64,000 nucleotides of DNA. Source: a virus. The position numbers were made by a program, and so were the translations under genes. The stretch spans positions 1 through 64,000 of IMG/VR virus record IMGVR_UViG_3300032931_001151; one strand, written 5' to 3'. Shown here one piece after another: positions 12,167 to 59,952 of the stretch. Each line of letters starts with the position of its first letter. Within the stretch, counting starts at the first letter, position 1. The notes below the pieces were generated by a model, which searched no databases, had not been told where the DNA came from, and saw only the letters and a list, made by a program, of their open reading frames with translations.

Positions 12167-13153
12167 ATGGACGATAATACATACGAACTAGCCAAGGCTT
12201 GGAAACAAATTGAAGAGAACTTGGTTCAATCGGTTAATCTTAATCCGGAAATGAATGAGAATGCGTTTAACTTTAATGTAGTTAAAAAGCAACTTGACGA
12301 TTTATATACAAATGTTGGCAAATCGGCTCAAAGTGCCGAATTTGCTGGAAATGATGTGTGGCTAATTTCCGGAAACTATCCTTTAAAAAACATAGGAGCA
12401 TCGGCTATCTTCATATATGCTAATGATGATGTATATAGAGGTAGTGATACTTTTGATTTATTTAAGAGAGTCGTTCTACCTTCCACCGAATATGAAGATG
12501 CTACACTTGAGAGCGGATCTATTGAAGAAGTACTTAGTAAAGCACAAGAGATAAATGTCGGAAAGGCACTTAAAGAAGTTGATTCTCCCGATGAAGCCAT
12601 TGCTAGAAGAGATAGAGATGAACAATCTAAGAACAACTTAAAAACTATTAAATTAGATGGACGAGTTGCCGATTTACTTGATATGAATATGAAGGAAATG
12701 GGTAATACGGAGTGGACCGATGGATATCAAGGTGATGGGCCATATCTACCCAAAGAAGTTGAAGACTATATACTAAATGCTATTGGTAATGATACCGAAG
12801 AACCATTTAAGGTTAGATTCATCAAATACGGATCATCAAGCCCATTAGAAGGTCGTGGAAGCCCCCTTTATGTTGAATATGAACAAGAAACTACCCCAGG
12901 ACATACCGAGTTTGGATTAAGAGATATGACCGAGCAAAGCGAATTGCCAATTGGAGAATTACATAAGTTAGTTAAAGTAAACGATTTAGGTAGTACTATT
13001 GACATTAGTTTTGGAATTGTTAGAATAGCAACAATTGAGCAAGAAGAGGCTGGGTGGGATATTTACATCCACGGGAAGCCACTTGCCGTTACTTATAATA
13101 CAAAGGAAGATGCCTTTACGGCACTTGTTAATTATCTAAATGATGAGAAATAA
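12167..13153 (+). CDS. Hypothetical protein with AW-type N-terminus
   Basis: A 328-residue acidic protein. Residues 5-20 (TYELAKAWKQIEENLV) carry the AW-type N-terminus shared with 10787 and 10990. Two beta-rich parts follow, about 45-110 and 215-325. No catalytic motif recognised. AAAGGAAAT precedes the ATG. Possibly a virion or internal head protein, from context only. Confidence 0.65.
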   Translation: MDDNTYELAKAWKQIEENLVQSVNLNPEMNENAFNFNVVKKQLDDLYTNVGKSAQSAEFAGNDVWLISGNYPLKNIGASAIFIYANDDVYRGSDTFDLFKRVVLPSTEYEDATLESGSIEEVLSKAQEINVGKALKEVDSPDEAIARRDRDEQSKNNLKTIKLDGRVADLLDMNMKEMGNTEWTDGYQGDGPYLPKEVEDYILNAIGNDTEEPFKVRFIKYGSSSPLEGRGSPLYVEYEQETTPGHTEFGLRDMTEQSELPIGELHKLVKVNDLGSTIDISFGIVRIATIEQEEAGWDIYIHGKPLAVTYNTKEDAFTALVNYLNDEK

Positions 13154-13901
13154 AATATTACAATATTTCATAGAAGGTAAAACTGCTGGGGATAAGTACG
13201 GGGATTTTGTAATTCAAAATGGGAAGATGTTATTTAATAGAGTGGGCGGATTGGGTGCTAAATATCAAGACAATACATGGGCACCCGAAAAAAGAGGAAT
13301 TTGGGCATTTCCATATCCTTTATTTGAATCATTTTTTATAAGTGGTCCATTTAGTATGCCTTCCCAACATAGTCCTAAAAAGTCAAAAATAGTAAAAATT
13401 GATTCAAAATTAAGAAATCAATTAGAGAAAAGACTAAGAGGATTAAAAACAAAAATGGAAATCGGTATATCAAAATTAAAATCAACCGAAGATAACCCAT
13501 TCCCAAAATATTTTGGTCACGAAAAATATGAAATTGAAGATTTAGAAAAAGCATTAAAAGATGGTGAAATAGATTCAATTAAATTAAGTTCTTCAATGAA
13601 ACATAAGTATAAACCAACAAATAAAATTCGTAGATTTTATTGGGGTGGCCCAATTTGGGCAAGATTTGCACCAAAAGGAGAAGAAGTTACTGAAAATGGT
13701 TGGTACAAATATGATGATATATATAGTTATATCAAAGAATTAAGAAAATATTTATTTGAGTGGAGAAGAGATTCATTATATGGAAGTAAAGATAATAAAG
13801 GAATTTTGTATAAGATAGGAGTTCCAATAGCATCTAAAGATGCTAACATGAGCATGGATCATTTGGAAGTATTTTTACCTATGAGCGGAAATCGTGACTG
13901 A
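13140..13901 (+). CDS. Hypothetical protein with RNKI-type N-terminal tag
   Basis: A 253-residue basic protein beginning MMRNKILQYFIEGKTAG, the tag also found at 42492, 55646, 57070 and 58978. The body has motifs IWAFPYPLFESFF, FYWGGPIWARF and DHLEVFLP but no family I can name. The start overlaps the last codons of the upstream gene. The tag and the late-type block suggest a packaged or virion-linked protein. Confidence 0.65.
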   Translation: MMRNKILQYFIEGKTAGDKYGDFVIQNGKMLFNRVGGLGAKYQDNTWAPEKRGIWAFPYPLFESFFISGPFSMPSQHSPKKSKIVKIDSKLRNQLEKRLRGLKTKMEIGISKLKSTEDNPFPKYFGHEKYEIEDLEKALKDGEIDSIKLSSSMKHKYKPTNKIRRFYWGGPIWARFAPKGEEVTENGWYKYDDIYSYIKELRKYLFEWRRDSLYGSKDNKGILYKIGVPIASKDANMSMDHLEVFLPMSGNRD

Positions 13902-14205
13902 AATTCAACATCTATACGATAGAGCAACTAAAATTCTAACTAATATAGAATGTATAAAGTCTATTACTCAAAAAATTATTGATGAAAAAGAAATGGGAAT
14001 CAAAATAGATAAGAAAGAAATTCTTAATTTAGCAAGTATAATAAAACAACTTATGGAAAGATATAATGCTATTCTTGAATGTATTGCTAAATCGCATATA
14101 TCATTTGAAGAGAAAGAAACTATTATGGATATGCTAGATACTTCTAGAAAATCTATAATGTCACTTAATAATGCTATTAATGTGGTTCAAAAAAAGATTA
14201 TTTAA
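13894..14205 (+). CDS. Helical hypothetical protein
   Basis: A 103-residue protein that is almost entirely amphipathic helix, rich in Ile, Lys and Glu, probably a coiled-coil bundle. It starts with GTG inside the last codons of the upstream gene. Its TAA stop overlaps the TAA of the convergent gene at 14202. Confidence 0.6.
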   Translation: MTEIQHLYDRATKILTNIECIKSITQKIIDEKEMGIKIDKKEILNLASIIKQLMERYNAILECIAKSHISFEEKETIMDMLDTSRKSIMSLNNAINVVQKKII

Positions 14206-14528
14206 CAATAAGAGTATAATATCCTATTAATGTCGTTAAAATCAAACTTATAAGCAAATACACCCATTATTTTTTTATTGTGATATAAATTGGTATATGA
14301 CAATCCTTCTACTGAATATTCTTCCAAGTGAAAACATTCTAGTATATCTCTATGAAATTCATCAAACGGGCCAAAAGATGGATATGTCATTAAAATATGA
14401 TGCCGGATCCATCTTTCTTTTAATGTATCAATTTGCTTCATATCTTTAAATAATGCTTCTTGAAAATCTATTAATTTATTGTCAAGTTGATTGACATCTT
14501 CTTGAAGTTTATTGTAATCAATGTTCAC
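14202..14528 (-). CDS. Hypothetical protein
   Basis: A 108-residue protein with a helical coiled-coil first half and an aromatic, His-rich second half. I chose the GTG at 14528: it overlaps the TGA of the upstream gene (GTGA) and has GAGGAA before it. It ends the long minus-strand block. Confidence 0.6.
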   Translation of the reverse strand: MNIDYNKLQEDVNQLDNKLIDFQEALFKDMKQIDTLKERWIRHHILMTYPSFGPFDEFHRDILECFHLEEYSVEGLSYTNLYHNKKIMGVFAYKFDFNDINRILYSYC

Positions 14529-15178
14529 TTGATTTCCTCTATAGAACAATCAATGGTTGCTCTACAAGTTACGAATGGATTTGGAATGTCGCCATCATGT
14601 GACAATGTACTAGTAATTAAACTCTTAAATTTTCCATTATCGTGACGGACATAGTATCTTTTAGCAACACTACCATCTCTTTTAAGTAAACAAATAGTAA
14701 AAGTAGGCATAGATTTAAAAAACTTATTAACGGAATCATTTTCGTCCATAAGAAACTCTATAGTTATAGAGTTTTGCGAATCAAATTTAATACTTCTTAC
14801 AAAACAAGTAACCAATTCATTCATCTTTCTATGCTCTTGTTGTTCTTCAATAGCGAAAAGATATGTTCTCAAGGGATCCTTAATTTTAAATTGATTAGTG
14901 ATAGTTGAATGGGAGATTGTTGAAGTTTCAAGATTTTTTATTACATTACTTTTCATTCTATTGAATTCATCAAAAGAAACCGTTATATTATTTTTAGTTA
15001 ATCTAGATTTAACAATGAATATTTGAATATCACCAATGGAGTTATAAATTATCATACCCGGCATATTAGACATGACTATAATTCCTACAAGATCCGCCTC
15101 TTGCACTTTTTTAAGTTGGTCTGGATCTTTATCAAAGTCATCTAGGTTAGCATACAAGTAAATAGTAGGTTCTCTCAT
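14525..15178 (-). CDS. Hypothetical protein
   Basis: A 217-residue protein starting MREPTIYLYANL, preceded by AAGGAAA. It looks alpha/beta in the first half (VGIIVMSNMPGMIIYNS) with a beta-rich second half. No family recognised. Confidence 0.65.
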   Translation of the reverse strand: MREPTIYLYANLDDFDKDPDQLKKVQEADLVGIIVMSNMPGMIIYNSIGDIQIFIVKSRLTKNNITVSFDEFNRMKSNVIKNLETSTISHSTITNQFKIKDPLRTYLFAIEEQQEHRKMNELVTCFVRSIKFDSQNSITIEFLMDENDSVNKFFKSMPTFTICLLKRDGSVAKRYYVRHDNGKFKSLITSTLSHDGDIPNPFVTCRATIDCSIEEIK

Positions 15179-15381
15179 TTTATTTCCTTCCAAATATATT
15201 GTTTAGTCCCGTATTGTGAATCATATCTTATATCCAAAACTTTATGTTTCAAAGCGTCATCATAAACTTCTAATTTACCATGATGACATCCGAGAAGATA
15301 TGCGGGAATTCCAATAACTAATAGGCCCAAGCCAAGTCCACATATAAGAATAAATGGAAGTAATCCGTCAAGATTAAACAT
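15175..15381 (-). CDS. Small membrane protein
   Basis: A 68-residue protein with one membrane helix (about residues 8-31, glycine rich) and a soluble C-terminal tail of mixed charge. GAGAGGAATA precedes the ATG; it overlaps the next gene by four bases. Function unknown. Confidence 0.6.
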   Translation of the reverse strand: MFNLDGLLPFILICGLGLGLLVIGIPAYLLGCHHGKLEVYDDALKHKVLDIRYDSQYGTKQYIWKEIK

Positions 15382-15393
15382 ACGTTATTCCTC

Positions 15394-16272
15394 TCAAAGA
15401 ACCCAAGTCGAGTGTTCACCATCAAAATTCATGGCTTTCTTATTGTGAAACTCATAAGAGTTAGTTTTAGTATCCAAAATAAACGGATTGACATACTTCT
15501 TATGGTCGGAACTATCAGTACTGCCAACACAAATAAATTCAATGTCACCAATCTTCTTATTGGCAACTCTATGAAAATGTCCATAGTACCACATACTAGG
15601 CTTCTTGATTAGCCCATTGTATAACATAGTTAATGGAGCATCCCCACAATCTAAATGATTAACTTCTCCATAACCATCTTCTACTATATATCGTTGAACT
15701 GACATATATAGTGCGGGATGTCCCTCCATGCCAATACCTAATCCGGAAGGGCATGAATGGGTAATAATAGTATCCATGCCACCAACACTGTTCCATTCCT
15801 CAATAGCCTTCTTTACTTGCTTATTAAGGATATAATTGGTAGTTTCTTTATCAATAGACCCTTCTTGCTTTCGATCTGCGTGAAGTCCACCACCCAAGAA
15901 TCCAATCTTATACCGATCAATATCTATCCAAGACCCACGAGGTTGATAATGGATATTGTACTTATCTTTCCACTCTTGATGGTTTGACTTTTTAATGAAT
16001 TCTCCAGAGTCATGATTTCCATCACATACTAGAACTTTCTTATGGAACTTCAATGCCGAGTACTCATAAGTGCATCCAATGGTACTTTGATTCTTTATTA
16101 ATTTGCTATTGAATGTGTCCAAATTAGCAAAAATGCTCGGGAAGAATCCGAAGTCGCCCACTTGAATTACAAAATTATACTTAATGTTGAGATTAAAATC
16201 AACATTCTTCATAACCGAGTTAAGATCCGCCCATTTACCGTGAACATCACCCAAGATTAATATTTTAGCCAT
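15394..16272 (-). CDS. Calcineurin-like metallophosphoesterase
   Basis: A 292-residue metallophosphoesterase. The metal-binding blocks are in order: GDVHG (Asp9, His11), VGDFG (Asp40), DGNHD (Asn86, His87), ITHSCPS and YGHFHR. Such enzymes cleave phosphomono- or diesters on proteins, nucleotides or nucleic acids; the substrate here is not deducible. It is the first gene after the weak promoter at 16306-16333 and has AAAGGAAAC before the ATG. Confidence 0.85.
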   Translation of the reverse strand: MAKILILGDVHGKWADLNSVMKNVDFNLNIKYNFVIQVGDFGFFPSIFANLDTFNSKLIKNQSTIGCTYEYSALKFHKKVLVCDGNHDSGEFIKKSNHQEWKDKYNIHYQPRGSWIDIDRYKIGFLGGGLHADRKQEGSIDKETTNYILNKQVKKAIEEWNSVGGMDTIITHSCPSGLGIGMEGHPALYMSVQRYIVEDGYGEVNHLDCGDAPLTMLYNGLIKKPSMWYYGHFHRVANKKIGDIEFICVGSTDSSDHKKYVNPFILDTKTNSYEFHNKKAMNFDGEHSTWVL

Positions 16273-16305
16273 CTTTAGTTTCCTTTAATTGCTTTTCTAC
16301 ATGGC

Positions 16306-16333
16306 ATTATAAGGAACATTGAAACAAATGCAA
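16306..16333 (-). promoter_or_regulatory. Probable sigma70-type promoter
   Basis: Minus strand TATAAT (16311-16306) with a weaker -35 TTGCAT (16333-16328), spacer 16. Its position fits the start of the metallophosphoesterase operon. Confidence 0.5.
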
Positions 16334-16343
16334 TTGAAATCTT

Positions 16344-16667
16344 CTATATTTTGCGACACTTGAAATCACCACTAGGAGTTGTTATAACCTCGGCTTTAGT
16401 GCCGTTAAAGTCATAAAATTGTTTAGTTTCCATAAGTTTGCCAAATTGATCATAAACTTCTACACAATTATCTTTAATTCCTTCAATTCCTCTTATGGCC
16501 ATTCCATAATAAAGATTGTTGTATTGTAATCCTTCAACTATTTCTTTAGTACCACAAATCATAGAATTATATGTGTTGGTACTAACTAATATAGAACTCG
16601 GAATTCTTCCTATTGATTTTGATAATTCTTCAAATTGCTTTTGAACTTTTTCTACAAGCTCGTTCAT
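16344..16667 (-). CDS. Hypothetical protein
   Basis: A 107-residue protein starting MNELVEKVQKQFEELSKSIG, preceded by GGAT. The ATG at 16667 overlaps the TGA of the upstream gene, which is why I prefer it to the ATG at 16691. The middle resembles RIPSSILVSTNTYNSM, followed by beta strands. No family recognised. Confidence 0.6.
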   Translation of the reverse strand: MNELVEKVQKQFEELSKSIGRIPSSILVSTNTYNSMICGTKEIVEGLQYNNLYYGMAIRGIEGIKDNCVEVYDQFGKLMETKQFYDFNGTKAEVITTPSGDFKCRKI

Positions 16668-17158
16668 AGGTGATCCGTAATATAATAGCATGCCCTATCT
16701 AAATCAGTATAAAGAGGAATCTCATATCTCTTACATACAATATCAACATTACCCTTCCTCCAAAACCCATTAGGGCAACAAACCAATAATTTTCTACTAT
16801 TCGCATACAACCCAAGTTCTAATAGGCTAATTGGGGATTTTGTATTTGGATCAAAGTACATTAGAATCTTTTTAGAAATATCTAATGCGGTTAATTCCCA
16901 ACTAACTTGTTCATTGAATTGAGGATTATCAATGGATTGCTCCCAAGACACGTCCCAATCAACTCTTCGTGGATTAAATATGTAATATTGTTCTTTGAAA
17001 GTTTTAATTTCATTGGCAATATGTTCTGTAACTTTTGCTTGCCAATCTTCGGCAGATCCTTGTTCAATACTTCCAGCTAAAAATATAGATTTAGGAACTA
17101 CCCCTTTAATTTTTTGGAACGGAAGAGCATTTGGTGGCTTAATGATAGTTAGTGGCAT
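16664..17158 (-). CDS. Nucleoside 2-deoxyribosyltransferase-like protein
   Basis: A 164-residue Rossmann-like protein of the nucleoside 2-deoxyribosyltransferase-like group. IFLAGSIEQGSAEDWQ (25-40), IFNPRRVDWD, the QVSWEL stretch, SPISLLELGLYA with the candidate catalytic Glu, and CCPNGFWRKGNV all match that group. Such enzymes exchange or cleave the N-glycosidic bond of (deoxy)nucleosides. It lies beside the macro-domain gene. Confidence 0.75.
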   Translation of the reverse strand: MPLTIIKPPNALPFQKIKGVVPKSIFLAGSIEQGSAEDWQAKVTEHIANEIKTFKEQYYIFNPRRVDWDVSWEQSIDNPQFNEQVSWELTALDISKKILMYFDPNTKSPISLLELGLYANSRKLLVCCPNGFWRKGNVDIVCKRYEIPLYTDLDRACYYITDHL

Positions 17159-17168
17159 TTAAAAATCC

Positions 17169-17624
17169 TTATTGTTTGAATTCTACTAATGTATGGTCTT
17201 CACCTTCAAGTTCCTCTTCGATTATCTTTGAAATAATGTCCCAATTTCCTCGGGCAAGTCCCGCTCCTATTTTTGGATAAGCAATTCTTTTTCCACTAAA
17301 TTGCCTCTTAACTTCTTTGAAACATTTTCTCAAGGCATCATAATCGGCATTTACTTTATTAATATTACATCCATATTGTCCATATGCATTAACAACTATA
17401 AACTTAACATTCTTTCTTTCAATTTCAATTACTCCGATAGTTCCTAATTTGCTTGCATCACCACGTTTAGTATAGTTATCAGCAATAGCCGCTTCTGGCA
17501 ACTCAATGGCAATTTGTCGTGCTATACCCAACCCCATAGTATTAAAACAATTACATTGATGTACTATAACATCAAATTGACTTTGAAGTGCCAATTTGAT
17601 TAAGTCTCCTTGAACTACTTTCAT
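17169..17624 (-). CDS. Macro-domain protein (ADP-ribose 1''-phosphatase-like)
   Basis: A 151-residue stand-alone macro domain. VVQGDLI (Asp7), VHQCNCFNTMGLGIARQI (21-38) and YPKIGAGLARGNW are the ADP-ribose-binding loops. The HQCN form resembles the yeast Poa1-like and phage Appr-1''-p phosphatases, which dephosphorylate ADP-ribose 1''-phosphate; removal of ADP-ribose from macromolecules is an alternative. The ATG overlaps the TGA of the upstream gene. Confidence 0.85.
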   Translation of the reverse strand: MKVVQGDLIKLALQSQFDVIVHQCNCFNTMGLGIARQIAIELPEAAIADNYTKRGDASKLGTIGVIEIERKNVKFIVVNAYGQYGCNINKVNADYDALRKCFKEVKRQFSGKRIAYPKIGAGLARGNWDIISKIIEEELEGEDHTLVEFKQ

Positions 17625-17815
17625 ATACCTTTCCCCTCTAATTGTTTCTTTTCATTTGCCTCAAGCATCTTATTAATATCTCTACAAATATCTTCAACCG
17701 TCATTCCTTTTGGAAAATTCCAATTAGAAATCCAACTCGGAACAGCATTGAAGTCAATAGTTCCATTTTGAATTTTCTTTTCTACCCATCTATAAAGTTT
17801 ATCTTTCTGGTGCAT
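17621..17815 (-). CDS. Small hypothetical protein
   Basis: A 64-residue protein with Trp-rich N-terminal half (PSWISNWNFPKG) and helical C-terminus. It overlaps both neighbours. No domain recognised. Confidence 0.6.
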   Translation of the reverse strand: MHQKDKLYRWVEKKIQNGTIDFNAVPSWISNWNFPKGMTVEDICRDINKMLEANEKKQLEGKGI

Positions 17816-18029
17816 TTAGTCTCTTTTCCGCTTCCACCCAATACGATAGAGCCTCGCCCCTAAATCCATCTTGCTCAGCCAACAAATAGGCCAATTCCTC
17901 TACTTGGTTTTTTGGCGGCTTGCATGGAGGCATAGGCACTTCTATTTCCGACTTTGGTAACTCAAACTTCTCTTTGCATTTTCCACAAAAAAATGCTTTA
18001 ATTGCTGAAAGTATATGATGTTTGCACAT
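17799..18029 (-). CDS. DUF2934-like small protein with zinc knuckle
   Basis: A 76-residue protein. The N-terminus has CGKC flanked by basic residues and an HH pair, a possible zinc site. The C-terminus (ELAYLLAEQDGFRGEALSYW) resembles the DUF2934 helix hairpin found in bacteria and phages. AAAGGT precedes the ATG. Function unknown. Confidence 0.6.
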   Translation of the reverse strand: MCKHHILSAIKAFFCGKCKEKFELPKSEIEVPMPPCKPPKNQVEELAYLLAEQDGFRGEALSYWVEAEKRLNAPER

Positions 18030-18030
18030 G

Positions 18031-18375
18031 TTATTTTACCTTTATATCTTTGTATTTACCGTCAAGAACCTCGTACCAATAACCACCGTCTACATATGAA
18101 GGAATTACTTCGCCAATTTGGAAGCGTGTAATATTATCGGGATATCGATGCTCATTCATAATTTTCTTTAGAGCATCATAAGCATCCGTCTTATTATTCC
18201 ATAGGATCATATCCCGTGAATCTTGAATGCCGTCTAATGTTTTCCAAAGCAATGGACGACCCTTTCTACTTTGAATGAGATAAAACACTTCATTATCATT
18301 ACAAGCCCAAAACGCCCATAACTTGGGTAGATGGTCTTTAATAGTTGAACAAGTAGTCGGGTAAGTCTTAGACAT
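18031..18375 (-). CDS. Hypothetical protein
   Basis: A 114-residue protein with an aromatic N-terminal half (KLWAFWACNDNEVFYLIQ) and a C-terminal beta part (YWYEVLDGKYKDIKV) that could be a small SH3-like or KOW-like fold. AAAGGAATT precedes the ATG. Not recognised. Confidence 0.6.
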   Translation of the reverse strand: MSKTYPTTCSTIKDHLPKLWAFWACNDNEVFYLIQSRKGRPLLWKTLDGIQDSRDMILWNNKTDAYDALKKIMNEHRYPDNITRFQIGEVIPSYVDGGYWYEVLDGKYKDIKVK

Positions 18376-19990: not shown

Positions 19991-19993
19991 ATA

Positions 19994-20305: not shown

Positions 20306-20324
20306 TTTATATCTCCTTTTAAGG

Positions 20325-20352
20325 ATTATAACAAGTGAAATTAGAAAGTCAA
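20325..20352 (-). promoter_or_regulatory. Sigma70-type promoter; -35 overlaps a stop codon
   Basis: Minus strand TTGACT (20352-20347), 16-base spacer, TATAAT (20330-20325), upstream of the radical SAM operon. The TGA stop of the gene ending at 20349 is inside the -35 box. Confidence 0.85.
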
Positions 20353-20795: not shown

Positions 20796-20815
20796 ATATT
20801 CTCCTTAAGTGATAT

Positions 20816-22236: not shown

Positions 22237-22238
22237 AA

Positions 22239-22797: not shown

Positions 22798-22799
22798 TA

Positions 22800-24878: not shown

Positions 24879-24884
24879 CCTATA

Positions 24885-26647: not shown

Positions 26648-26675
26648 ATTATATAAAGAATCTGCAATAAGTCAA
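26648..26675 (-). promoter_or_regulatory. Sigma70-type promoter; -35 overlaps a stop codon
   Basis: Minus strand TTGACT (26675-26670), 16-base spacer, TATAAT (26653-26648), for the pncA operon. The TGA of the gene ending at 26672 lies in the -35 box. Confidence 0.85.
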
Positions 26676-27178
26676 TGATGACTTACTTTTATATGTGGAA
26701 TATGATTAAATAAATCGCCATGTTCAATTGCCGAATTTAACGGGCCATCATTATCTGAAAAATTAAGGGAAACTACAATTTTATCTTTATTTTTTTTCAT
26801 AAAATCTTTATATTTTTTCTCTATGAATTCTTCATGATCTTTTATATACTTCTCATAAGCATCTTTGTACTCTTTGGATTTATAGTCAAGCCCACTAGTA
26901 TATGTGCAATAATCCGGACCATCATCATAGTGGCCGCTTAACTCATTCTTTATTGATTCTTCATCGTTTGGCTTGGCGTCTTGAATTTCATTGTAAACTC
27001 TTTCGGCCACGTCATTTAAACTAAAACATTCCGAACTATAGCACGCCGAGTAAGCAACTTGATCTTTCTTAAAAAGTAACTTTTTAACTTCTTTAATAGT
27101 CGTTGGAAGTTTCTCTAAAGAAACAATAAAAGACGACGAACTTGAATTTGTTACAAACCCGTTACGAAATTTTGCCAT
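26672..27178 (-). CDS. FVTNSSSSSF-family protein, paralogue 4
   Basis: A 168-residue protein starting MAKFRNGFVTNSSSSSFIVS. Only the first 18 or so residues match its three neighbours; the body is acidic and helical with a Tyr-rich segment and a long lysine/glutamate helix. The motif resembles, from memory, small proteins of unknown function in phages and bacteria. Last gene of the radical SAM operon. Confidence 0.75.
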   Translation of the reverse strand: MAKFRNGFVTNSSSSSFIVSLEKLPTTIKEVKKLLFKKDQVAYSACYSSECFSLNDVAERVYNEIQDAKPNDEESIKNELSGHYDDGPDYCTYTSGLDYKSKEYKDAYEKYIKDHEEFIEKKYKDFMKKNKDKIVVSLNFSDNDGPLNSAIEHGDLFNHIPHIKVSHH

Positions 27179-27179
27179 A

Positions 27180-27425
27180 TTATAATTCCTCTACTTTATA
27201 ATCTTTTGGGTTAATCTTTAATTTTTTGAAAAGCGTTTCAATACTATCATTTTCCATAAAAGTAGTACCTTTAAGTTCATTTTCTAAAAATGTAACTTCC
27301 CAAAAATCCCCACAAGTATTGATATATTTCAATATTTTAGTCATTTGGAGATCGGTTAGATTCTTCTTTTGTAGAATGAAACTACTTGAAGAAGAATTAG
27401 TTACAAAGTCACTTCTAAATTTCAT
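27180..27425 (-). CDS. FVTNSSSSSF-family protein, paralogue 3
   Basis: An 81-residue protein starting MKFRSDFVTNSSSSSFILQK, the shortest of the four. The remainder contains two short helices and an acidic end. Its stop is followed after four bases by the next paralogue. Function unknown. Confidence 0.75.
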   Translation of the reverse strand: MKFRSDFVTNSSSSSFILQKKNLTDLQMTKILKYINTCGDFWEVTFLENELKGTTFMENDSIETLFKKLKINPKDYKVEEL

Positions 27426-27428
27426 ACA

Positions 27429-27794
27429 TTATTCCTTTATATATTTTGCAAAATCTTTATATGTTCCAAATTTCCCTTGTATTGTAGCAAGGATTGCCTC
27501 TTTTGTCAACCCTAGATCTTTCATAAGGAATTCCAAGATTGCATCTCTATCCATTTCTTTGAATTGGCAAATTGGGCAACATTTGATATCAACTTCGTAT
27601 GGATAGTCATCATTATCTTCTTTTGCTAAGTCTTCATCAATTAGATATTGTTCATCAAATGTGTGATTAGATTTACAAGTACACATTTGACAATCACTCA
27701 AAGATAGATCCATCCCCGATTCTATTCTACCGGTAACTTGGCAAATGAATGAAGATGAACTTGAATTAGTTACAAACCCGGCTCTGAATTTCAT
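27429..27794 (-). CDS. FVTNSSSSSF-family protein, paralogue 2
   Basis: A 121-residue protein starting MKFRAGFVTNSSSSSFICQV. After the shared N-terminus it has CQMCTC and CCPICQF cysteine groups, a probable zinc ribbon, then an acidic helix-rich tail. The distinct body next to an identical N-terminus suggests the motif is a detachable module. Confidence 0.75.
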   Translation of the reverse strand: MKFRAGFVTNSSSSSFICQVTGRIESGMDLSLSDCQMCTCKSNHTFDEQYLIDEDLAKEDNDDYPYEVDIKCCPICQFKEMDRDAILEFLMKDLGLTKEAILATIQGKFGTYKDFAKYIKE

Positions 27795-27797
27795 GTA

Positions 27798-28193
27798 TTA
27801 TTCCTTTTCTAGTAGAATTATGTTTTTCCCGTCACATATATCATTCATTTGGTCATTAAGTATATCGTTATGATAACTAATGCACTTTTTGTATACCACA
27901 TACCCATCATTGATTAATTTTCTATATTTATCAATATCGGAAGTAGTCATACAAATATATTCTCTTTTTAAATAACTATTTAAGTCGGATTCAGTCGAAA
28001 ACAACTTTTCGGCCTCATGTGTATCATTACTATCTTCAAATTCAAACATTTGCTTAATAGAGTTAATAATAAACCTCTTCCAAATCTCATTGTCAACTTC
28101 AATAAACTTATCAATATTATCTAATCCACCTTTAACGGCTATAATGAAACTTGATGAACTTGAATTAGTTACAAAACCATTACGGATTTTCAT
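27798..28193 (-). CDS. FVTNSSSSSF-family protein, paralogue 1
   Basis: A 131-residue protein starting MKIRNGFVTNSSSSSFIIAV. The ATG at 28193 overlaps the TGA of the radical SAM gene (ATGA) and AAGGAG lies five bases upstream, so translation is probably coupled. The body is acidic, with two Cys residues in an MCMTT-like region (ICMTTSDIDKY). Function unknown. Confidence 0.75.
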   Translation of the reverse strand: MKIRNGFVTNSSSSSFIIAVKGGLDNIDKFIEVDNEIWKRFIINSIKQMFEFEDSNDTHEAEKLFSTESDLNSYLKREYICMTTSDIDKYRKLINDGYVVYKKCISYHNDILNDQMNDICDGKNIILLEKE

Positions 28194-42469: not shown

Positions 42470-42477
42470 GATAAATA
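42470..42477 (+). promoter_or_regulatory. Possible late promoter (one mismatch)
   Basis: GATAAATA differs from the late octamer TATAAATA at the first base and lies 14 bases before the ATG at 42492, at the start of a late-type block. Confidence 0.4.
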
Positions 42478-42491: not shown

Positions 42492-43160
42492 ATGTCACTA
42501 AGAAATAAAATAATTAATTTATTTGAGGCTCATGACTTGTTTGATCAACAAGGAAGTATTAATGTGGACCACGGAGAAATCGGAAATAGAGATCAAATGG
42601 GTAGTATGTGGCATTCTTATCCAAGCATTGATTATGCCATGCTTGAAGATGGAGAAAAACCAAGAATATACATTGATATGGATAGTGTTTTATGCGATTT
42701 TGTTAAATCTTTCAAAGAAAAAGTCGGAATTTCCCCCGAAGAGTATGAAGCAACTAACGGAAAAAATGCTTTTTGGGATATTATAGAGTCTTGGGGAGAG
42801 GATTTTTGGGAAACTCTACCGTGGATGCCAGATGGAAAAGAACTTTGGAATTATGTATCTAAATATAATCCCATAATACTATCTGCTGCAATGGCTGGAT
42901 ATCAAAGAAGAGGAAAATCAAAGTGGCTTCAAAAAGAAATAGGATATTCCGATACTCCTATAGTTAATCCAAGTAATTGGAAAGGCCAATCTAAAGTAAT
43001 ATTTCATAAAGACAAATGGAGATTTATTCTAGAAAAAAACGAAATATTAATTGATGACACCGAAAGCAAGATTGAACCTTGGCACGATAATGGCGGAATC
43101 GGTATACTTCACACATCCGCTAAAAATACTATAGAGTATTTGAAAAAAATTGGATTATAA
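42492..43160 (+). CDS. HAD-fold 5'(3')-deoxyribonucleotidase-like protein with N-terminal tag
   Basis: A 222-residue protein. Residues 1-13 (MSLRNKIINLFEA) are the RNKI-type tag; then a HAD domain of the NT5C group: YIDMDSVLCDF holds the DxDSV nucleophile motif, LSAAM the second motif and ILIDDTESK the acidic motif. Such enzymes dephosphorylate (deoxy)nucleotides. I chose the ATG at 42492, with GAGG before it. An enzyme carrying this tag in a late block may be packaged. Confidence 0.8.
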   Translation: MSLRNKIINLFEAHDLFDQQGSINVDHGEIGNRDQMGSMWHSYPSIDYAMLEDGEKPRIYIDMDSVLCDFVKSFKEKVGISPEEYEATNGKNAFWDIIESWGEDFWETLPWMPDGKELWNYVSKYNPIILSAAMAGYQRRGKSKWLQKEIGYSDTPIVNPSNWKGQSKVIFHKDKWRFILEKNEILIDDTESKIEPWHDNGGIGILHTSAKNTIEYLKKIGL

Positions 43161-48285: not shown

Positions 48286-48288
48286 CAT

Positions 48289-53646: not shown

Positions 53647-53648
53647 AA

Positions 53649-54434
53649 TCATCCATTTAGCGGATACTTAGAGATATCAAAAGTATTTTCTCCAAGCGGA
53701 ATATGTGACATTCCGTTATAGTTATGGATGATATAAGATTGAACTATATTTGATACAAATGAATTAACTTTATCATAATCCGGCTTTTCCGGAAGTTTTG
53801 AAGATGCAAAAGCATCATTCATTTCATTGATATTGTTATTAAGGAAAGATAAACATTCCTCTTTAGTATAATCATAATTTCTCATTTTGGAAACAATATC
53901 TTTATCAACCCCCTTAAGAGTTGGGTCAAGTTTTCCTTCCGACATTAGCATAACGCATTGTTTAGCTAGACGATATGCATTTGATGCAAACTTTCCGTCA
54001 TAACCATAAGTATCAAATAAATCTTTCCTCTTACCTACACGAATAGAAGTGGTGAATTCTTTTATTTGACTATAGTGATAATTGAAAAATGGAAGAAATA
54101 GATGCTTTGTTATCATATTATCACGAACAAATCTAGCAACTATTTCCCCAATCGGAGTAGTATGTAAAACAAATTTTGAATCGGCACAAAATGGCTCCAA
54201 AATTGTTGGATTTCCTTTAAAAAGTAAATTGAAGCATCTACGAACTTCATAAATAGTCCCATTAAAATTTTCATTGCCTAGTTTCCCATTTGAATAGTCT
54301 TGTTGCTCTTTGGATTTTAGTCCACAATATTCGTCAATTTCATTGAGGCCGACGCCTTTTACGTCAAAATCCGAGTCATCCTTATTAGTACCATAAAGGC
54401 GGGATCCAACGATAGCAATGTAAATGGGTTTCAT
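53649..54434 (-). CDS. RlaP-type nucleotidyltransferase
   Basis: A 261-residue nucleotidyltransferase of the RlaP-like group. AIVGSRLYGTNKDDSDFDVKG carries the GS and DxD (Asp22, Asp24) site; EVRRCFNLLFKGNPTILE is the next conserved block. The family is thought to transfer nucleotides to RNA or other acceptors; no substrate is established here. It follows its own promoter (54468-54495) and is convergent with the fibre gene. Confidence 0.75.
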   Translation of the reverse strand: MKPIYIAIVGSRLYGTNKDDSDFDVKGVGLNEIDEYCGLKSKEQQDYSNGKLGNENFNGTIYEVRRCFNLLFKGNPTILEPFCADSKFVLHTTPIGEIVARFVRDNMITKHLFLPFFNYHYSQIKEFTTSIRVGKRKDLFDTYGYDGKFASNAYRLAKQCVMLMSEGKLDPTLKGVDKDIVSKMRNYDYTKEECLSFLNNNINEMNDAFASSKLPEKPDYDKVNSFVSNIVQSYIIHNYNGMSHIPLGENTFDISKYPLNG

Positions 54435-54467
54435 TTTACTTCCTTAAAAGCTAATTGTATTGACCTC

Positions 54468-54495
54468 ATTATATTGATATTTTTCAAAGAGTCAA
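54468..54495 (-). promoter_or_regulatory. Sigma70-type promoter
   Basis: Minus strand TTGACT (54495-54490), 16-base spacer, TATAAT (54473-54468), for the RlaP-like gene. The -35 box lies in the last codons of the upstream 50-residue gene. Confidence 0.8.
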
Positions 54496-54636
54496 TTGCC
54501 AATTTTCTTTACTTTCTTTAGAAAGTTTATTGCCTAAAACTAGAATAGCGAAATAAAGTTGTGCTATATCCTTGGTTACTTCATCTCCATTTTTTATGGA
54601 CTCATATATTTCCATAGCGTGTTCAAGATTTTCCAT
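54484..54636 (-). CDS. 50-residue helical protein
   Basis: A short gene starting MENLEHAMEIYESIKNGDEV, ending NWQLTL. GGAAAT precedes the ATG, which lies two bases after the stop of the upstream gene. The protein looks like one or two amphipathic helices. Function unknown. Confidence 0.6.
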   Translation of the reverse strand: MENLEHAMEIYESIKNGDEVTKDIAQLYFAILVLGNKLSKESKENWQLTL

Positions 54637-54638
54637 GT

Positions 54639-54887
54639 TTATTTCCAATTTGTATATGTGTGAGAGTCTTCATTAGTTTTCTCGTTAATTTGATTCAATG
54701 CGGCTCTACACATAATTTGTATTTCTTCAAGAACTTCGGGCGAAATTGCTAATCTAATCTCCCTTTCCCCTTTTATACTATAGTGGTTAATTATTAAAAA
54801 TAATTCTTTATTTTTTGATTCAACAAATAGATCAAATTCCTCATCATTATCATTGACAAAACCACGACTAGCGATAATATCATCCAT
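54639..54887 (-). CDS. Small hypothetical protein
   Basis: An 82-residue protein with a beta-hairpin-like middle (KELFLIINHYSIKGEREIRL) and a C-terminal helix. It follows the transglycosylase gene with a one-base gap. Not recognised. Confidence 0.6.
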   Translation of the reverse strand: MDDIIASRGFVNDNDEEFDLFVESKNKELFLIINHYSIKGEREIRLAISPEVLEEIQIMCRAALNQINEKTNEDSHTYTNWK

Positions 54888-54888
54888 T

Positions 54889-55560
54889 TTATTTTTCTCC
54901 TAGATTTTTAACGGCATTATAATACTCATTAGCACTATTAATATATCTTCTATAATTAGAAGGTCCAACATTATACATACCAATAGCAATTTTCCAATTT
55001 TCATGCGCAGGGCCATTATATAAGTACATTAGATATCTAATAGTTAATTCTTCGGCATATTTAGTATCTTTTTCTAATTTCCAAAATTGTTCATTTGATT
55101 TATGTATAACCTCAAAACAAATCCTTTTCATTTGGAATGGACCTCTCTCCCCCGACGAACCCCTACGTTTATCAACATATATTATAGATCCTATAGAAGA
55201 ATAATAAGAAGTAGTCTCCCTCATTAACATGCCTTTTAGAACCCAAGGAGGGATAAGAGATTTAGGAGTTTCAATAATTGGAATCGTAGGTGCTACTATA
55301 GATACTATTGGATTTGGAATATCTAATTTGTCATAATATATAGTAGGAATTTCAATTTTATTATTAATTCTATAATTATATGCATCTTTATAGAATTGAT
55401 ATTCGGAATAGTAGATAAAACGGGATTCTATCTTTATTGGGGAGTCTTCATCTAAATTTGTCGTTGTTAAAGATGAAAAAGAAGAAAGACAAACTAGACA
55501 AAATATACCTAAACATATATTTATCAACGATTTAAGAATTTTTTTAGTAATTTCATTCAT
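54889..55560 (-). CDS. Lytic transglycosylase-like (SLT fold) protein
   Basis: A 223-residue protein with an N-terminal hydrophobic segment (about 10-30, ICLGIFCLVCLSSF), either signal peptide or membrane anchor, and a lysozyme-like C-terminal domain. MLMRETTSYY puts the probable catalytic glutamate at 115; GERGPFQM, a helix and IGMYNVGPSNYRRYI correspond to the SLT motifs. It would cleave peptidoglycan at entry or lysis. First gene after the promoter at 55589-55615. Confidence 0.7.
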   Translation of the reverse strand: MNEITKKILKSLINICLGIFCLVCLSSFSSLTTTNLDEDSPIKIESRFIYYSEYQFYKDAYNYRINNKIEIPTIYYDKLDIPNPIVSIVAPTIPIIETPKSLIPPWVLKGMLMRETTSYYSSIGSIIYVDKRRGSSGERGPFQMKRICFEVIHKSNEQFWKLEKDTKYAEELTIRYLMYLYNGPAHENWKIAIGMYNVGPSNYRRYINSANEYYNAVKNLGEK

Positions 55561-55588
55561 GTTGGTGAATATTTTCCTTATGAGATTG

Positions 55589-55615
55589 ATTATAGTCCAA
55601 AAATTAAGATGTCAA
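55589..55615 (-). promoter_or_regulatory. Sigma70-type promoter
   Basis: Minus strand TTGACA (55615-55610), 15-base spacer, TATAAT (55594-55589), for the transglycosylase operon. It partly overlaps the divergent late-promoter hairpin. Confidence 0.7.
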
Positions 55616-55637
55616 TAGTTGCTATAAATATCTATTG
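55613..55637 (+). promoter_or_regulatory. T4-like late promoter in a small hairpin
   Basis: TATAAATA (55623-55630) lies in the loop between CAATAG (55613-55618) and CTATTG (55632-55637). The 3' arm abuts the Shine-Dalgarno GGGGAA of the gene at 55646. Confidence 0.55.
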
Positions 55638-55645
55638 GGGAATTT

Positions 55646-55801
55646 ATGAGAAATAAAATAATAAAAGTATTTATTGAAAGAAAAAAGAAATCATTAATTA
55701 ATGATATGGTCAATATTGACCCTAATTCTAAAAGTGATCATATTCAACAACATATGATTCAAAAGCCCATTCAATCTGGATATTCAATAAACATTCCTTA
55801 A
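55646..55801 (+). CDS. 51-residue protein with RNKI-type tag
   Basis: A short gene starting MRNKIIKVFIERKKKSLIND, with GGGGAATTT before the ATG. The first ten residues match the tag on the proteins at 13140, 42492 and 57070. The rest is polar, Gln and Ile rich. Located behind an exact late octamer. It may be a small head or scaffold protein. Confidence 0.6.
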   Translation: MRNKIIKVFIERKKKSLINDMVNIDPNSKSDHIQQHMIQKPIQSGYSINIP

Positions 55802-55816
55802 AAAATGGTTTCCATG

Positions 55817-55825
55817 TGATATAAT
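55817..55825 (+). promoter_or_regulatory. Possible extended -10 promoter
   Basis: TGATATAAT is an extended -10 element 33 bases before the ATG at 55858. No convincing -35. Confidence 0.4.
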
Positions 55826-55857
55826 AGTAAAACATATTCAATTGAAAGGAATATATT

Positions 55858-56109
55858 ATGTCAGAACCATCACCAACTCAACTTAACATTGGCCATTTAA
55901 AGAATGTCCTTTTATTAGCAAGACATGGAATTGCGGCAATTGGCGCAAAATTACCAGCACAAGAGGGTAAAGCCGCATTTGAAAGTCTCGGTGAAGTTGA
56001 AAAATTTGTTATTGATTTTGAAAAAATGCAACAAACACAACAACAAGTTCAAAGTCAACCCGCACAAGTTGAGGAACCATTTGAAGTTCATACTGTAAAA
56101 ATTCAATAA
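55858..56109 (+). CDS. Small hypothetical protein
   Basis: An 83-residue protein, Ala/Gln rich, with one or two helices (HLKNVLLLARHGIAAIGAKL) and a Gln-rich acidic tail. GAAAGGAAT precedes the ATG. Sits among late virion-type genes; possibly a head or tail accessory protein. Confidence 0.6.
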   Translation: MSEPSPTQLNIGHLKNVLLLARHGIAAIGAKLPAQEGKAAFESLGEVEKFVIDFEKMQQTQQQVQSQPAQVEEPFEVHTVKIQ

Positions 56110-56119
56110 GAACTTTAAT

Positions 56120-56163
56120 CCCCTATAATTATAAATAGGTTATAGAAGAACTATTTTAGGGGG
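56120..56163 (+). promoter_or_regulatory. T4-like late promoter inside an RBS-masking hairpin
   Basis: CCCCTA (56120-56125) pairs with TAGGGG (56157-56162), and AATAG (56134-56138) with CTATT (56151-56155). TATAAATA occupies 56130-56137. The 3' arm holds the Shine-Dalgarno AGGGGG of the gene at 56169. RNA started at the octamer would lack the 5' arm. Confidence 0.6.
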
Positions 56164-56168
56164 TTATA

Positions 56169-57077
56169 ATGGATATTAATAGAATAAGAAAAGCCTTACA
56201 AGAGGATGGGGGTGCGGTTGCCGCTGGAACTTCTTCTACCCCCGCCAATTCGGGTCCGGGATTAAATAGTCAAGGTATTGCGCCATTTAAAGCTAAAATG
56301 GGGTCTTGGAGAAGACAACAAGACGAAGAAGTAGATCCCCAATCCCCAGGAGTTGTTCAAAGTACCCAACATGCTTCCGATGCACAACTAATCAATCCTT
56401 GGGCTGGTAAACTTTCCGAAGTTACCCATGAAGTAGTTAATCTATTTGACGAAGAGCGAATGAATTACAAAGAAACTAGGTTAACCCCTTTTAGTGGATT
56501 ACAATTGGAAGATTTTGAAGTTGGAATAGAAAACATATACAATAAACTATCAAAGATTATTCATTACAATATAATGAATACTACGGATACTTCTAATAAA
56601 GATATTCATAAGTTAAAAAATAAATATAATATATTGAAGAGACAAGCATTACAACAAATTGAAGATGCTATTTACACTATAGAAGGTGGAACATCAACAA
56701 TATTAGAAGACGATTTAAATCTCGGTGATATATTCTTTGTAATGTGCATGATGAATGCATATAGTAGCGATGAAGGATATGACCCTCTTAAATATGCCGA
56801 TTCACAAGTTGATAGATTACTTGAAATTTCTAAAGATGATGCAATTGAGTTGGTTCACCATTTATATAAAACTTTAATTCCAACTTTAAAACCAACAAAA
56901 TCTTCAAAATTAGGAATAGCATCGGAAACTTTAGATGCTATTAATAAAGAAAAATGGGGAGAAGCATTATTTTGGAATAAACTCCGAAAAACTCTTGAAG
57001 TCATGACACCAACCAACGACTCTAACGAATATGATACCGAATTACCACAAGAAGAACCGGAAGAAGAAAATGTTTAA
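56169..57077 (+). CDS. Late protein with N-terminal tag-like sequence
   Basis: A 302-residue protein starting MDINRIRKALQEDGGAVAAG, a variant of the tag with a possible LQE cleavage site. A Ser/Gly/Pro/Ala linker follows to about residue 75; the remainder is helical and acidic, with a segment DEERMNYKETRLTPFSGLQL. No family recognised. Probably a head or internal virion protein from context. Confidence 0.65.
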   Translation: MDINRIRKALQEDGGAVAAGTSSTPANSGPGLNSQGIAPFKAKMGSWRRQQDEEVDPQSPGVVQSTQHASDAQLINPWAGKLSEVTHEVVNLFDEERMNYKETRLTPFSGLQLEDFEVGIENIYNKLSKIIHYNIMNTTDTSNKDIHKLKNKYNILKRQALQQIEDAIYTIEGGTSTILEDDLNLGDIFFVMCMMNAYSSDEGYDPLKYADSQVDRLLEISKDDAIELVHHLYKTLIPTLKPTKSSKLGIASETLDAINKEKWGEALFWNKLRKTLEVMTPTNDSNEYDTELPQEEPEEENV

Positions 57078-57528
57078 AAATAAAATATTAAAGTTGTTTG
57101 AAAGCCCTAACGATTCGTTTCCCGGATCGGTTTCGAGAATTGGTATAGGAAGCCAATCGTCAACTCAAAGCGGATTACAATCTCGTTGTCCTTCTTTTCC
57201 ATTACAAGGAAATCAATCAATACACGAAGAAGAAATCCCACAAGATGCCATTGAACCTCTACAATTAAATGATATAACTATTGAAGGCTACATTGTTGTT
57301 AAAAATGGAACCCCAACCAATATTAGATATAAATTAATAAAAAATGGGGTTCCTTTACCCGTAGATCCAACTAAAGAAAAAAGTAAAAATATAGGACACA
57401 CATCCCATCAAGTATTAAAAAAATTATCAATGTTGTCAAATAAGATTCAATTAATTAAAAAATTCATTCAATATGACAGAAAGAACATTATTAATTTAAA
57501 AACTAAACAACAATCGAAAATTGGATAA
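57070..57528 (+). CDS. Late protein with RNKI-type tag
   Basis: A 152-residue protein whose ATG at 57070 lies inside the end of the upstream gene and begins MFKNKILKLFESPNDSFPGS. A Ser/Gln/Gly-rich linker and a lysine-rich C-terminus follow. LFE-S after the tag resembles a prohead-protease site. Longer upstream reading in this frame is rejected because it precedes the tag. Confidence 0.6.
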   Translation: MFKNKILKLFESPNDSFPGSVSRIGIGSQSSTQSGLQSRCPSFPLQGNQSIHEEEIPQDAIEPLQLNDITIEGYIVVKNGTPTNIRYKLIKNGVPLPVDPTKEKSKNIGHTSHQVLKKLSMLSNKIQLIKKFIQYDRKNIINLKTKQQSKIG

Positions 57529-57531
57529 TAT

Positions 57532-58956
57532 ATGTCCCCCGTGACTCCTATAATAAATACTAATTTTTATGGATTTGATTATTATGAGGTTGCATATACT
57601 TGTGTGGGCGTGCAATATCCAGTTTTGGGGGATGTGATATTCCCTAATATAACATTTTCTAAAGCACCCTATCAAGAATTAATAGCCAATATATCCGTAA
57701 AAGATTGCCCCACTCCGCAAACCGTTGATCAACTATTTACAACTAGTTTATCAAGTAGGTCTACCATTACAATAAACGACATAAGAGCAAACAATATAAT
57801 AGCAGACAATATAGGAATTCAATTCTATACTACAAATTGGGAAGATTCTTTAATTCTTTGCGACGAAATAAATAATGCACACACTTTAAACATTAGTATT
57901 GATGGAAGTTATGCAACCGCCGAACAATTAGAACTTGCTAAAGAACAAAATTGGGATACTTGGTGGAATACACTATTATCTATGAAAGTTGACTTGACCG
58001 ACTATTTCCAAATGGGAGACACTCAACTTTATAGTGGAGGTTCAAAAAGAGATTCGCTAAATTTAGTTGGTAGACTTATAGTTCCAAGCCATACAATAGT
58101 CTCAAGAAGTGGAGTTACAACTATAAGTGCAGGAGATATATTTAATGCTTGTAGTAATAATTATACTATTTCTATAGGCTATGAGGCTTTTACACAATAT
58201 TTTGAATCGCCATATGGAAGTTGTTGCATTATACAAAATGACATGCAAAAAAATTGGACTATTTCAACAAGCATGTCTTCGCCATATAACATTACTATTA
58301 CCCCCCTACATATGAATGATACTAATGGTCAAATACTATTAAATATACCTTCTAAGTTTTTTGACGATATAAGATCGAATCCGTCGCTATTAAATCAACA
58401 ATTTACACTTCAATGGACTATTAATCTAACAGTTCAAGGCGATTGTTTAGCCAATGCCATGGTAGATAAGTATATTAACACATTGTATCCATATAGCAAC
58501 CAAGGACAATTATATTATCAACCCGGATGTGGTATAATTTTCAATAATGCACAAGAGTATGCTTCAACTATTTTAGCCACTTTAGATACTATGAAAACTA
58601 CCATTAGAAGTTTATTTTCAACTACTTATAATTGCTATGTTCGATTATTGTCGCAAACCGATATGTATGGGGATATTATTATTGGCAAAGGTAGATTCTA
58701 CAATCACCACGGCTCGGAATGTTCTTTCTTATTAAAACAAGTTCTTAGACCAATAATAAATGTTCCAACTTCTAATGAAACTACAAAAGGGCTTACGTTA
58801 CCAAACTCTAATGCCGTAGTACCAACTATTCAAACTAGTACTATAATTCCTACTACATTAGCACCTAATATTAGTCCAACTACCTTTTCTAATCTATTCA
58901 AGAAAACCGGCAATAAATTATGTCAAGTTTTACCAACAAATCTCAAATATAAATAA
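57532..58956 (+). CDS. Probable virion structural protein
   Basis: A 474-residue beta-rich protein, Asn/Thr/Ser rich, with 13 or so cysteines and a Pro/Thr-rich C-terminal region (VPTIQTSTIIPTTLAPN). No enzymatic motif. Composition and location between late genes suggest a structural or decoration protein. The late octamer for the next gene lies in its last codons. Confidence 0.6.
   Translation: MSPVTPIINTNFYGFDYYEVAYTCVGVQYPVLGDVIFPNITFSKAPYQELIANISVKDCPTPQTVDQLFTTSLSSRSTITINDIRANNIIADNIGIQFYTTNWEDSLILCDEINNAHTLNISIDGSYATAEQLELAKEQNWDTWWNTLLSMKVDLTDYFQMGDTQLYSGGSKRDSLNLVGRLIVPSHTIVSRSGVTTISAGDIFNACSNNYTISIGYEAFTQYFESPYGSCCIIQNDMQKNWTISTSMSSPYNITITPLHMNDTNGQILLNIPSKFFDDIRSNPSLLNQQFTLQWTINLTVQGDCLANAMVDKYINTLYPYSNQGQLYYQPGCGIIFNNAQEYASTILATLDTMKTTIRSLFSTTYNCYVRLLSQTDMYGDIIIGKGRFYNHHGSECSFLLKQVLRPIINVPTSNETTKGLTLPNSNAVVPTIQTSTIIPTTLAPNISPTTFSNLFKKTGNKLCQVLPTNLKYK
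58948..58955 (+). promoter_or_regulatory. T4-like late promoter
   Basis: TATAAATA within the final codons of the upstream gene, 23 bases before the ATG at 58978. Confidence 0.6.
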
Positions 58957-58977
58957 TAGAATAAAAGGATATTTTCA

Positions 58978-59952
58978 ATGGACCTGAAAAGTAGAATTAA
59001 ATCATTATTTACAGAGGGCTTACTAATAGAAAAAGCCGATGTAAGTAATATTATTGGTAAAAAGAAAATACTAAAGAAACAATCGGTGAAAAAAAGTAAG
59101 ATAAAAAGCAAAAGAAAAAATAACTTTAAAACTCAAGATGCAAGAAGAATATTGGCATCTAAACACGGTGTTAGCAATGCTTTAAAGAAAATGGAAAATA
59201 AATATGTAATGGATTATGCAGAAATTGCAAAACTAATGAGGAAATATAGTTATACCTTCAATAAAGACAAGGGAAGTTGGCTAAAGAAGAAAGATGTCGG
59301 ATCCGAAGTCAAATCAACGTCTACTAAAGCAACTATTGAGCCAACTTCAAATAAACCCGAAACTTCTAAACCAAAAGAGTCTAAAAAGGCAAAAATTAAA
59401 GTTGCTAAAATTGATGATATTGAAGATAAATTAAAATCCGATAAATCTTCAAGTATGAAGAAGTCTTCAAATATTGAAGATAAAAATGTTATAAGTAATG
59501 AGAGTATGAAGAGTTATCAAGGAAGATTAATATCCTATTTATTAAATTCAAATAATGAAGAGGGTGGATGGCTTGATGCTATACAAATAGTTGACGAAGA
59601 GCCTTTAGAATTCTATCTACCAAAAGAATCCATTTACGAGTACCTATCAAATCAAGATATTACTTGGATAGAAGATCGTAAAGTGTGGGTTGACATAGAC
59701 GGAGATTACCCAATTTCCAACGAAATTCATAATGGTAGAATAGGAATAACCGCAAGAGCAATATTGGCTAATAACGGATTTATTAATTTCCTTAATGTTG
59801 ATGAAGTAAGTGATGAAGAAACTCTTGACTCTATACGAGAACTGGGATATAATTGGGGCGATGGCATGTGGGTTAAACCCGAAATAACCACCGAAATTGT
59901 TAAAAGACAATTCCCCGAATTAGTAACCAATGACATTATAGGCACAATATAA
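58978..59952 (+). CDS. Basic late protein with tag; probable internal or DNA-binding protein
   Basis: A 324-residue protein starting MDLKSRIKSLFTEGLLIE. Residues 25-190 are extremely Lys/Ser rich with little structure, as in DNA-associated internal head proteins. The C-terminal part (about 180-320) is acidic with two similar segments ending IEDRKVWVD and GWGDGMWV-like (YNWGDGMWVKP). AAAAGGATA precedes the ATG. Packaging inside the capsid is a fair guess. Confidence 0.6.
   Translation: MDLKSRIKSLFTEGLLIEKADVSNIIGKKKILKKQSVKKSKIKSKRKNNFKTQDARRILASKHGVSNALKKMENKYVMDYAEIAKLMRKYSYTFNKDKGSWLKKKDVGSEVKSTSTKATIEPTSNKPETSKPKESKKAKIKVAKIDDIEDKLKSDKSSSMKKSSNIEDKNVISNESMKSYQGRLISYLLNSNNEEGGWLDAIQIVDEEPLEFYLPKESIYEYLSNQDITWIEDRKVWVDIDGDYPISNEIHNGRIGITARAILANNGFINFLNVDEVSDEETLDSIRELGYNWGDGMWVKPEITTEIVKRQFPELVTNDIIGTI

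Follow-up and report, generated by a model that had tools for sequence, protein, structure and literature searches.

Short N-terminal leaders shared by unrelated proteins of an uncultured T4-superfamily phage as probable capsid-targeting sequences

Several otherwise unrelated proteins of an uncultured T4-superfamily phage begin with a common short N-terminus, and it is very likely that these N-termini are capsid-targeting leaders acting like those of T4 IPI–III and Alt, with packaging, core binding, cleavage and injection all predicted from the genes. The phage is represented by IMG/VR record IMGVR_UViG_3300032931_001151 (G000; 214,200 bases, 277 genes called over the whole record), of which bases 1–64,000 form the window, the full stretch from which the leaders were originally predicted. 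The reading draws on leaders carried by unrelated bodies, on a prohead protease, scaffold and major capsid protein (MCP) in the same genome, on late promoters and on leader exchange at a cleavage-type junction. Very probably this is a capsid-targeting sequence (CTS) of the known T4 kind, here in a new lineage that shows leader exchange, has two classes of leader and ties the tag to the scaffold and protease. The second leader class, the tags beyond the window and a copy of an MCP arm in one tagged protein were absent from the original prediction. A readable packaging tag would yield, from sequence and for uncultured viruses too, a list of proteins potentially injected together with the phage DNA.

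The six N-termini singled out by that prediction are all present on the plus strand (Table 1), and its central claim, a common leader on differing bodies that include a nucleotidase, stands. Of the six, the looser match that it proposed at 56169 is a weak member of the class. The 42492 start is an ATG within a longer ORF having a TTG start, and the 57070 start is an internal ATG of ORF 57031–57528 that overlaps the stop codon of 56169. A search of the remaining genome for the motif added 117239, the scaffold and the protease, all on the minus strand, so that the plus-strand orientation claimed for every tagged gene holds inside the window and fails genome-wide. The proposed amphipathic helix is apparent in some tags and not striking in every one (moment ranks 15 to 221 of 270). 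The predicted cleavage motif has F, L or I at P3 and Glu at P1, the Phe at P3 widening the T4 motif; Glu comes straight after Phe (LFE) in 42492, 57070 and the scaffold and after F-x in the other tags, which leaves the exact cut position uncertain. Most tagged bodies are without relatives, a point against the leader reading, and none were found in IMG/VR for 117239, 56169 and 58978.

Table 1. Positions of leader genes, late-promoter-like sites and head genes in the record (class-1 leaders and that of 56169 are given up to the predicted cut).
Feature	Position	Strand	Detail
T4-type late promoter, TATAAATA	10759-10766	plus	28 nt before ATG at 10787
63-aa protein	10787-10978	plus	class-2 leader MDSDKLMNELKKAWIKLDN
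153-aa protein	10990-11451	plus	class-2 leader DKLKTLEAAWRQVNE
328-aa protein	12167-13153	plus	class-2 leader MDDNTYELAKAWKQIEE
Class-1 leader of gene 13140-13901	13140-13175	plus	MMRNKILQYFIE
Tagged protein, 253 aa, without family	13140-13901	plus	final leader gene of 10787 operon
Late-promoter-like site, ATAAATA	42471-42477	plus	21 nt before 42492
Class-1 leader of nucleotidase	42492-42527	plus	MSLRNKIINLFE
Tagged 5'-3' deoxyribonucleotidase	42492-43160	plus	phrog_2643, 8e-25
Late-promoter-like site, TATAAATA	55623-55630	plus	precedes 55646
51-aa protein	55646-55801	plus	class-1 leader MRNKIIKVFIE, 55646-55678
Late-promoter-like site, ATAAATA	56131-56137	plus	precedes 56169
302-aa protein	56169-57077	plus	loose leader MDINRIRKALQE, predicted cut, then MCP-arm copy
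Copy of mature MCP N-arm, 26 residues	56214-56291	plus	AVAAGTSSTPANSGPGLNSQGIAPFK, directly after predicted cut of 56169
152-aa protein	57070-57528	plus	class-1 leader MFKNKILKLFE, 57070-57102
Late-promoter-like site, ATAAATA	58949-58955	plus	precedes 58978
324-aa basic low-complexity protein	58978-59952	plus	class-1 leader MDLKSRIKSLFTE, 58978-59016
Tagged protein outside window	117239-118579	minus	start MSNKIKSLFYES
Gp23 MCP	143997-145352		6e-99
gp22-type (T4_CASP) scaffold	145395-146537	minus	3.5e-12
S77 (gp21-type) prohead protease	146562-147269	minus	2.9e-25

A prohead protease elsewhere in the genome, for which the original prediction had proposed a search, was found in the S77 protein, together with a gp22-type scaffold and a Gp23 MCP; among isolates, Synechococcus phages provide the MCPs that rank best against the latter, with roughly 34–36% identity. 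The scaffold itself opens with the class-1 motif (MEKTVIEKLFEN), and residues 20–26 of the protease read IIKVFTE, followed by ET (IIKVFTE↓ET, with ↓ marking an established (T4) or predicted cut here and below), identical at 6 of 7 residues to the 55646 tag. The scaffold also contains 21 [LIF]xE sites where 10.75 are expected (p = 5e-4), an excess that would be expected if the protease shreds it, as happens with T4 gp22. What gp21 autocleavage does is described as unsettled, with targeting as one possibility (PMC9026906), and a tag motif within both scaffold and protease bears on this question.

As in the T4 CTS of IPI, IPII, IPIII and Alt, a short leader precedes unrelated bodies in a phage with an S77 (gp21-type) protease, the cut motif ends in Glu with a hydrophobic P3, and expression appears to be late. 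In the T4 genome, IPII and IPIII begin MKTYQEFIAE↓A, Alt MELITELFDE↓D and gp24 MAKINELLRE↓S, cut sites that we take to be established. The start of Alt is close to that of 58978 (MDLKSRIKSLFTE↓G). The leaders of this phage differ from the IP consensus MKTYQEFIAE and did not match it, but Alt departs from that consensus too, so the IP sequence is not required for a T4-type CTS; the tags appear to share the other T4-type features that were tested. Further differences from T4 are the two or more leader classes, the acceptance of Phe at P3, the tag motif within scaffold and protease, and a different cargo. T4 propeptides of 10–19 residues direct the internal proteins to the core and gp21 cleaves after L/I-x-E (PMC9026906), and the T-even internal proteins have only the CTS in common (PMC3012670). 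Head proteins of SPN3US and phiKZ are likewise cleaved after Glu by a gp21-type protease, and their cargo is injected (PMC9026906, PMC5694885), a likeness whose G000 side is read from genes; SPN3US propeptides mostly exceed 100 residues, whereas the leaders described here have about 11–38 and are common to several proteins per genome.

Exchange of leaders can be followed in a putative zinc metalloprotease family (HExxH) that has one member in G000 (113331) and five full-length members and one partial in G003, a 331,849-base phage chosen for encoding the protein most closely related to the 42492 nucleotidase. Comparison of the family with Pfam and with PDB sequences gave no significant match, isolate phages contained no member, and AlphaFold2 models (pLDDT 50) found no usable match by Foldseek. 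The leaders differ among the seven copies (MKFSEFYENYINGHFLVE↓RIDDE, MSFKNYFNKHLLFEHGIIVE↓RENDQ, MSINKQIKIILSRNETILNE↓RTGDK, MKKIIKEVKLLLEYNESLFIE↓RENDH; MEDFQDDKIMRELKNTWKNQKPHLKNISIVLENRTIVE↓REGDE (class 2); and, of class 1, MKYLKNKIIDIFSE↓REGDE and MMKKRIIDIFSE↓REGDE), yet the body is joined at [FIL]xE↓R in all of them. Across the six full-length copies E18, R19 and D22 are as invariant as the HExxH residues while leader length and sequence vary, which is the pattern predicted by leader removal after [FIL]-x-E. The nucleotidase is similar in this respect: homology of 42492 to its relatives begins mostly near residue 50–59, the body is preceded in other phages by MYKLTDLYKQLKEE, MKLLVENWRQYLNE, MKYSAFKAETLNLHLVQE and others, and in some it is leaderless. 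Leader exchange at a fixed junction would separate targeting from cleavage.

Under the capsid-targeting reading, the tagged proteins would be made late and the leader helix would bind the core of the prohead, whose gp22-type scaffold and S77 protease bear the same motif; bound in this way, the proteins would be enclosed during assembly of the Gp23-type shell. Once activated, the protease would then cleave after [LIF]-x-E, taking off the leaders and shredding the scaffold, and the mature cargo would remain with the DNA, be injected at infection and probably act before new synthesis. Likely cargo would include the deoxyribonucleotidase and the putative zinc metalloprotease. The packaged internal proteins of T4 include early counter-defence factors.

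It is unlikely that the tagged proteins are instead parts of the prohead core or scaffold that undergo degradation and are not retained in the virion. Such a fate would suit the basic, low-complexity 58978 and the acidic, Pro/Thr-rich 117239, which has a second site (KAIIAE↓G), and T4 gp67 and gp22 behave in this manner (PMC9026906); the nucleotidase and the putative metalloproteases, however, resemble folded enzymes with a single leader, and degradation may apply to single members with the role of the leader unchanged. Considerably less probable still is a tag that directs proteins away from the head, to the tail or baseplate, a membrane or a replication compartment. Structures other than the head can be targeted by amphipathic N-terminal leaders, and the block 55646–59952 lies near tail-fibre-type genes, including 60006, but the motif recurs in the scaffold and protease of the prohead, its end is a site of the prohead-protease type, and the E↓RxxD junction is conserved, as cleavage would require. 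The gene adjoining the tagged block (60006–61211, plus) matches an RNA ligase/tail fibre attachment catalyst (PF09511, 5e-13; phrog_562, 7.6e-38).

The sequence TATAAATA, established as the T4-type late promoter, and the late-promoter-like ATAAATA precede many of the leader genes. ATAAATA is found 8–60 nt upstream of 6 of the 10 leader genes in G000 and of 27 of the 267 others (p = 2.7e-4), and the same comparison in G003 gave 7/11 against 62/459. This enrichment points to late expression of the tagged genes.

The tight core of the class-1 motif, I-x-[KQNSE]-[LVY]-F-x(0,1)-E, was written with the tags already in view. It occurs within the first 12 residues of 6 of the 277 genes, or of 7 once the 57070 start is counted, and at 6 of 61,991 other positions (p = 1.2e-5), the latter including the 57070 tag itself and the prohead protease. 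Intermediate versions gave p = 0.006 and 0.04 and the loosest showed no N-terminal enrichment (p = 0.1 and 0.6), so that the claim rests on the tight form. Because the expression had been composed after the tags were seen, a hold-out profile was built from the six class-1-type tags of G003 alone (MDLKNKIKELFIES, MNLKDKLNQIFSEE, MSKSLKDKIKMIFEN, MKYLKNKIIDIFSE, MMKKRIIDIFSE and KLKIKEIFQSE) and scanned over 62,822 positions of G000. Among the top 10 positions, 5 (6 with 57070) were N-terminal against 0.35 expected (p = 1e-5 to 4e-7), and the same profile placed 0–1 N-terminal matches among the top 10 in each of four other phages. Unsupervised EM motif finding on the full set of N-termini had overfitted, with half of the genes assigned, and the hold-out profile took its place. 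Although the unenriched loosest motifs, the favouring of K, N and I by AT-rich codons and the marked amphipathicity of only some helices would all suit chance, or a generic Lys/Asn/Ile-rich start helix of an AT-rich genome, this explanation is highly improbable: the hold-out test (p = 1e-5 or better; four phages as negative controls) largely refutes it, and it is opposed by the recurrence of the motif in scaffold and protease, the late promoter association and tag codons that differ from gene to gene.

A second class of leader, L-x-x-[AT]-W-[KRNQ], is found N-terminally in 10990 and 12167, with a close variant at 10787, in genes that sit just upstream of the class-1 gene 13140. It is carried by five genes of G003 and occurs at zero internal positions (p = 2e-5). 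Inside the 10787 operon, which opens with TATAAATA at 10759, an Acb1-type anti-CBASS protein (11614–12156, plus; PF23474, 1.7e-12) is encoded without an evident leader.

Shared leaders are not confined to this lineage. In the S77-encoding phage G002, the leader MKLLxENWxxY[IL]NE is present on 12 unrelated proteins and at 0 internal positions (p = 6e-16), and in G001, also S77-encoding, an LTESDL-type leader is found on 11 unrelated proteins against 1 occurrence elsewhere (p = 2.5e-12). Tagged proteins of G002 include a 2H phosphodiesterase (Pfam, 8.8e-7) and a SAM-lyase-like Pfam match (1.3e-4, below the curated cut-off), and those of G003 a PARP/KptA-like Pfam match (5e-4, below the curated cut-off). 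In the 268,739-base G001 record both the S77 protease and the MCP are present twice, near 31 kb and 233 kb, which may reflect two head modules or a chimeric contig. Within the window of G000, a different shared N-terminus, K[FI]R-x-[GD]FVTNSSSSSFI, is carried by four adjacent minus-strand genes (26672, 27180, 27429 and 27798, spanning 26672–28193) whose bodies score against each other at noise level; no late promoter was seen upstream of them.

In some T4-superfamily phages a second, non-MCP protein copies the N-arm of the phage's own mature MCP after a predicted protease site. The copy in 56169 follows the predicted cut KALQE↓DGGAV and corresponds to the MCP region around and after the predicted cut FAE↓AAGTSSTAGNNGPGFNSQGVAQFK; 56169 scores 97 against its own MCP, where shuffled sequences reach 51 at most (blastp 9.9e-6). 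On both sides of the arm the G000 and G003 MCPs closely resemble each other, but the arm itself differs, and in G003 another protein, 104584, carries the copy (AMNE↓CGTAAVAGPGAADGTVNQAVNATQGIA against MCP VLNE↓SGTASEAGLGCTDGTVNQAINGQQGVA; score 110, shuffle maximum 67), for which a search for relatives found only itself. A third copy, in the G001 group (29472), reads SQLDE↓ISSIASNSFFTSGGEGENHTG against MCP QLVTE↓TNTISSNSFYQSGGQGENWAG (76 against a shuffle maximum of 56). Its register after Glu is kept in 13 of the 14 contigs holding both genes, some of them near-identical, with L165 weak, and in three contigs the copy has an SGT variant where the MCP likewise leaves SGG. Matching of arm to copy is found only within the same phage (scores 95, 89 and 68; other pairings reach no more than 46).

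The G001-group gene occupies the gp67/gp68 position, with the portal on one side and the protease on the other, and arm-copy proteins, as putative minor head proteins around the same type of protease, resemble T4 gp24, gp67 and gp68. They differ from six T4 head proteins in reproducing their own MCP N-arm: no copy was found in gp20, 67, 68, 21, 22 or 24 (best score against the gp23 N-arm 37), nor in phages G002, G005 and G006, and isolate phages contain no G001-type arm-copy protein. 56169 was also considered as a duplicate of the whole MCP or a Gp23/gp24 paralogue, and this was rejected, since only residues 16–41 match the MCP, with no similarity past these 26 residues and no Pfam Gp23 match; other MCP similarity was found in none of the arm-copy proteins. 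An AlphaFold2 model of 56169 (pLDDT 38) gave no usable structure. There is about an even chance that such proteins use the arm-binding site to attach to the inside of the shell, where they would anchor internal proteins or fill arm sites. The openly available literature on MCP N-terminal arm mimicry with a prohead protease gave no sign of an arm copy, and the element is apparently new and undescribed; if its function is confirmed, it would be a new way to attach a protein to the capsid shell.

Further MCP-like pieces occur in the window as well. The C-terminal residues of 58978 (KRQFPELVTNDIIGTI) resemble MCP ARVFPELVSNDLVGV, a likeness too weak to be counted (score 63, with 56 the highest among shuffles). 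A 219-aa protein (746–1405, minus), whose gene is not a capsid gene and lies apart from the late blocks, has a 30-residue stretch (GIQKTGTFGKFTVYQDVTNIDPIMGYKG) like MCP residues 354–383, with a score of 77 against a shuffle maximum of 51.
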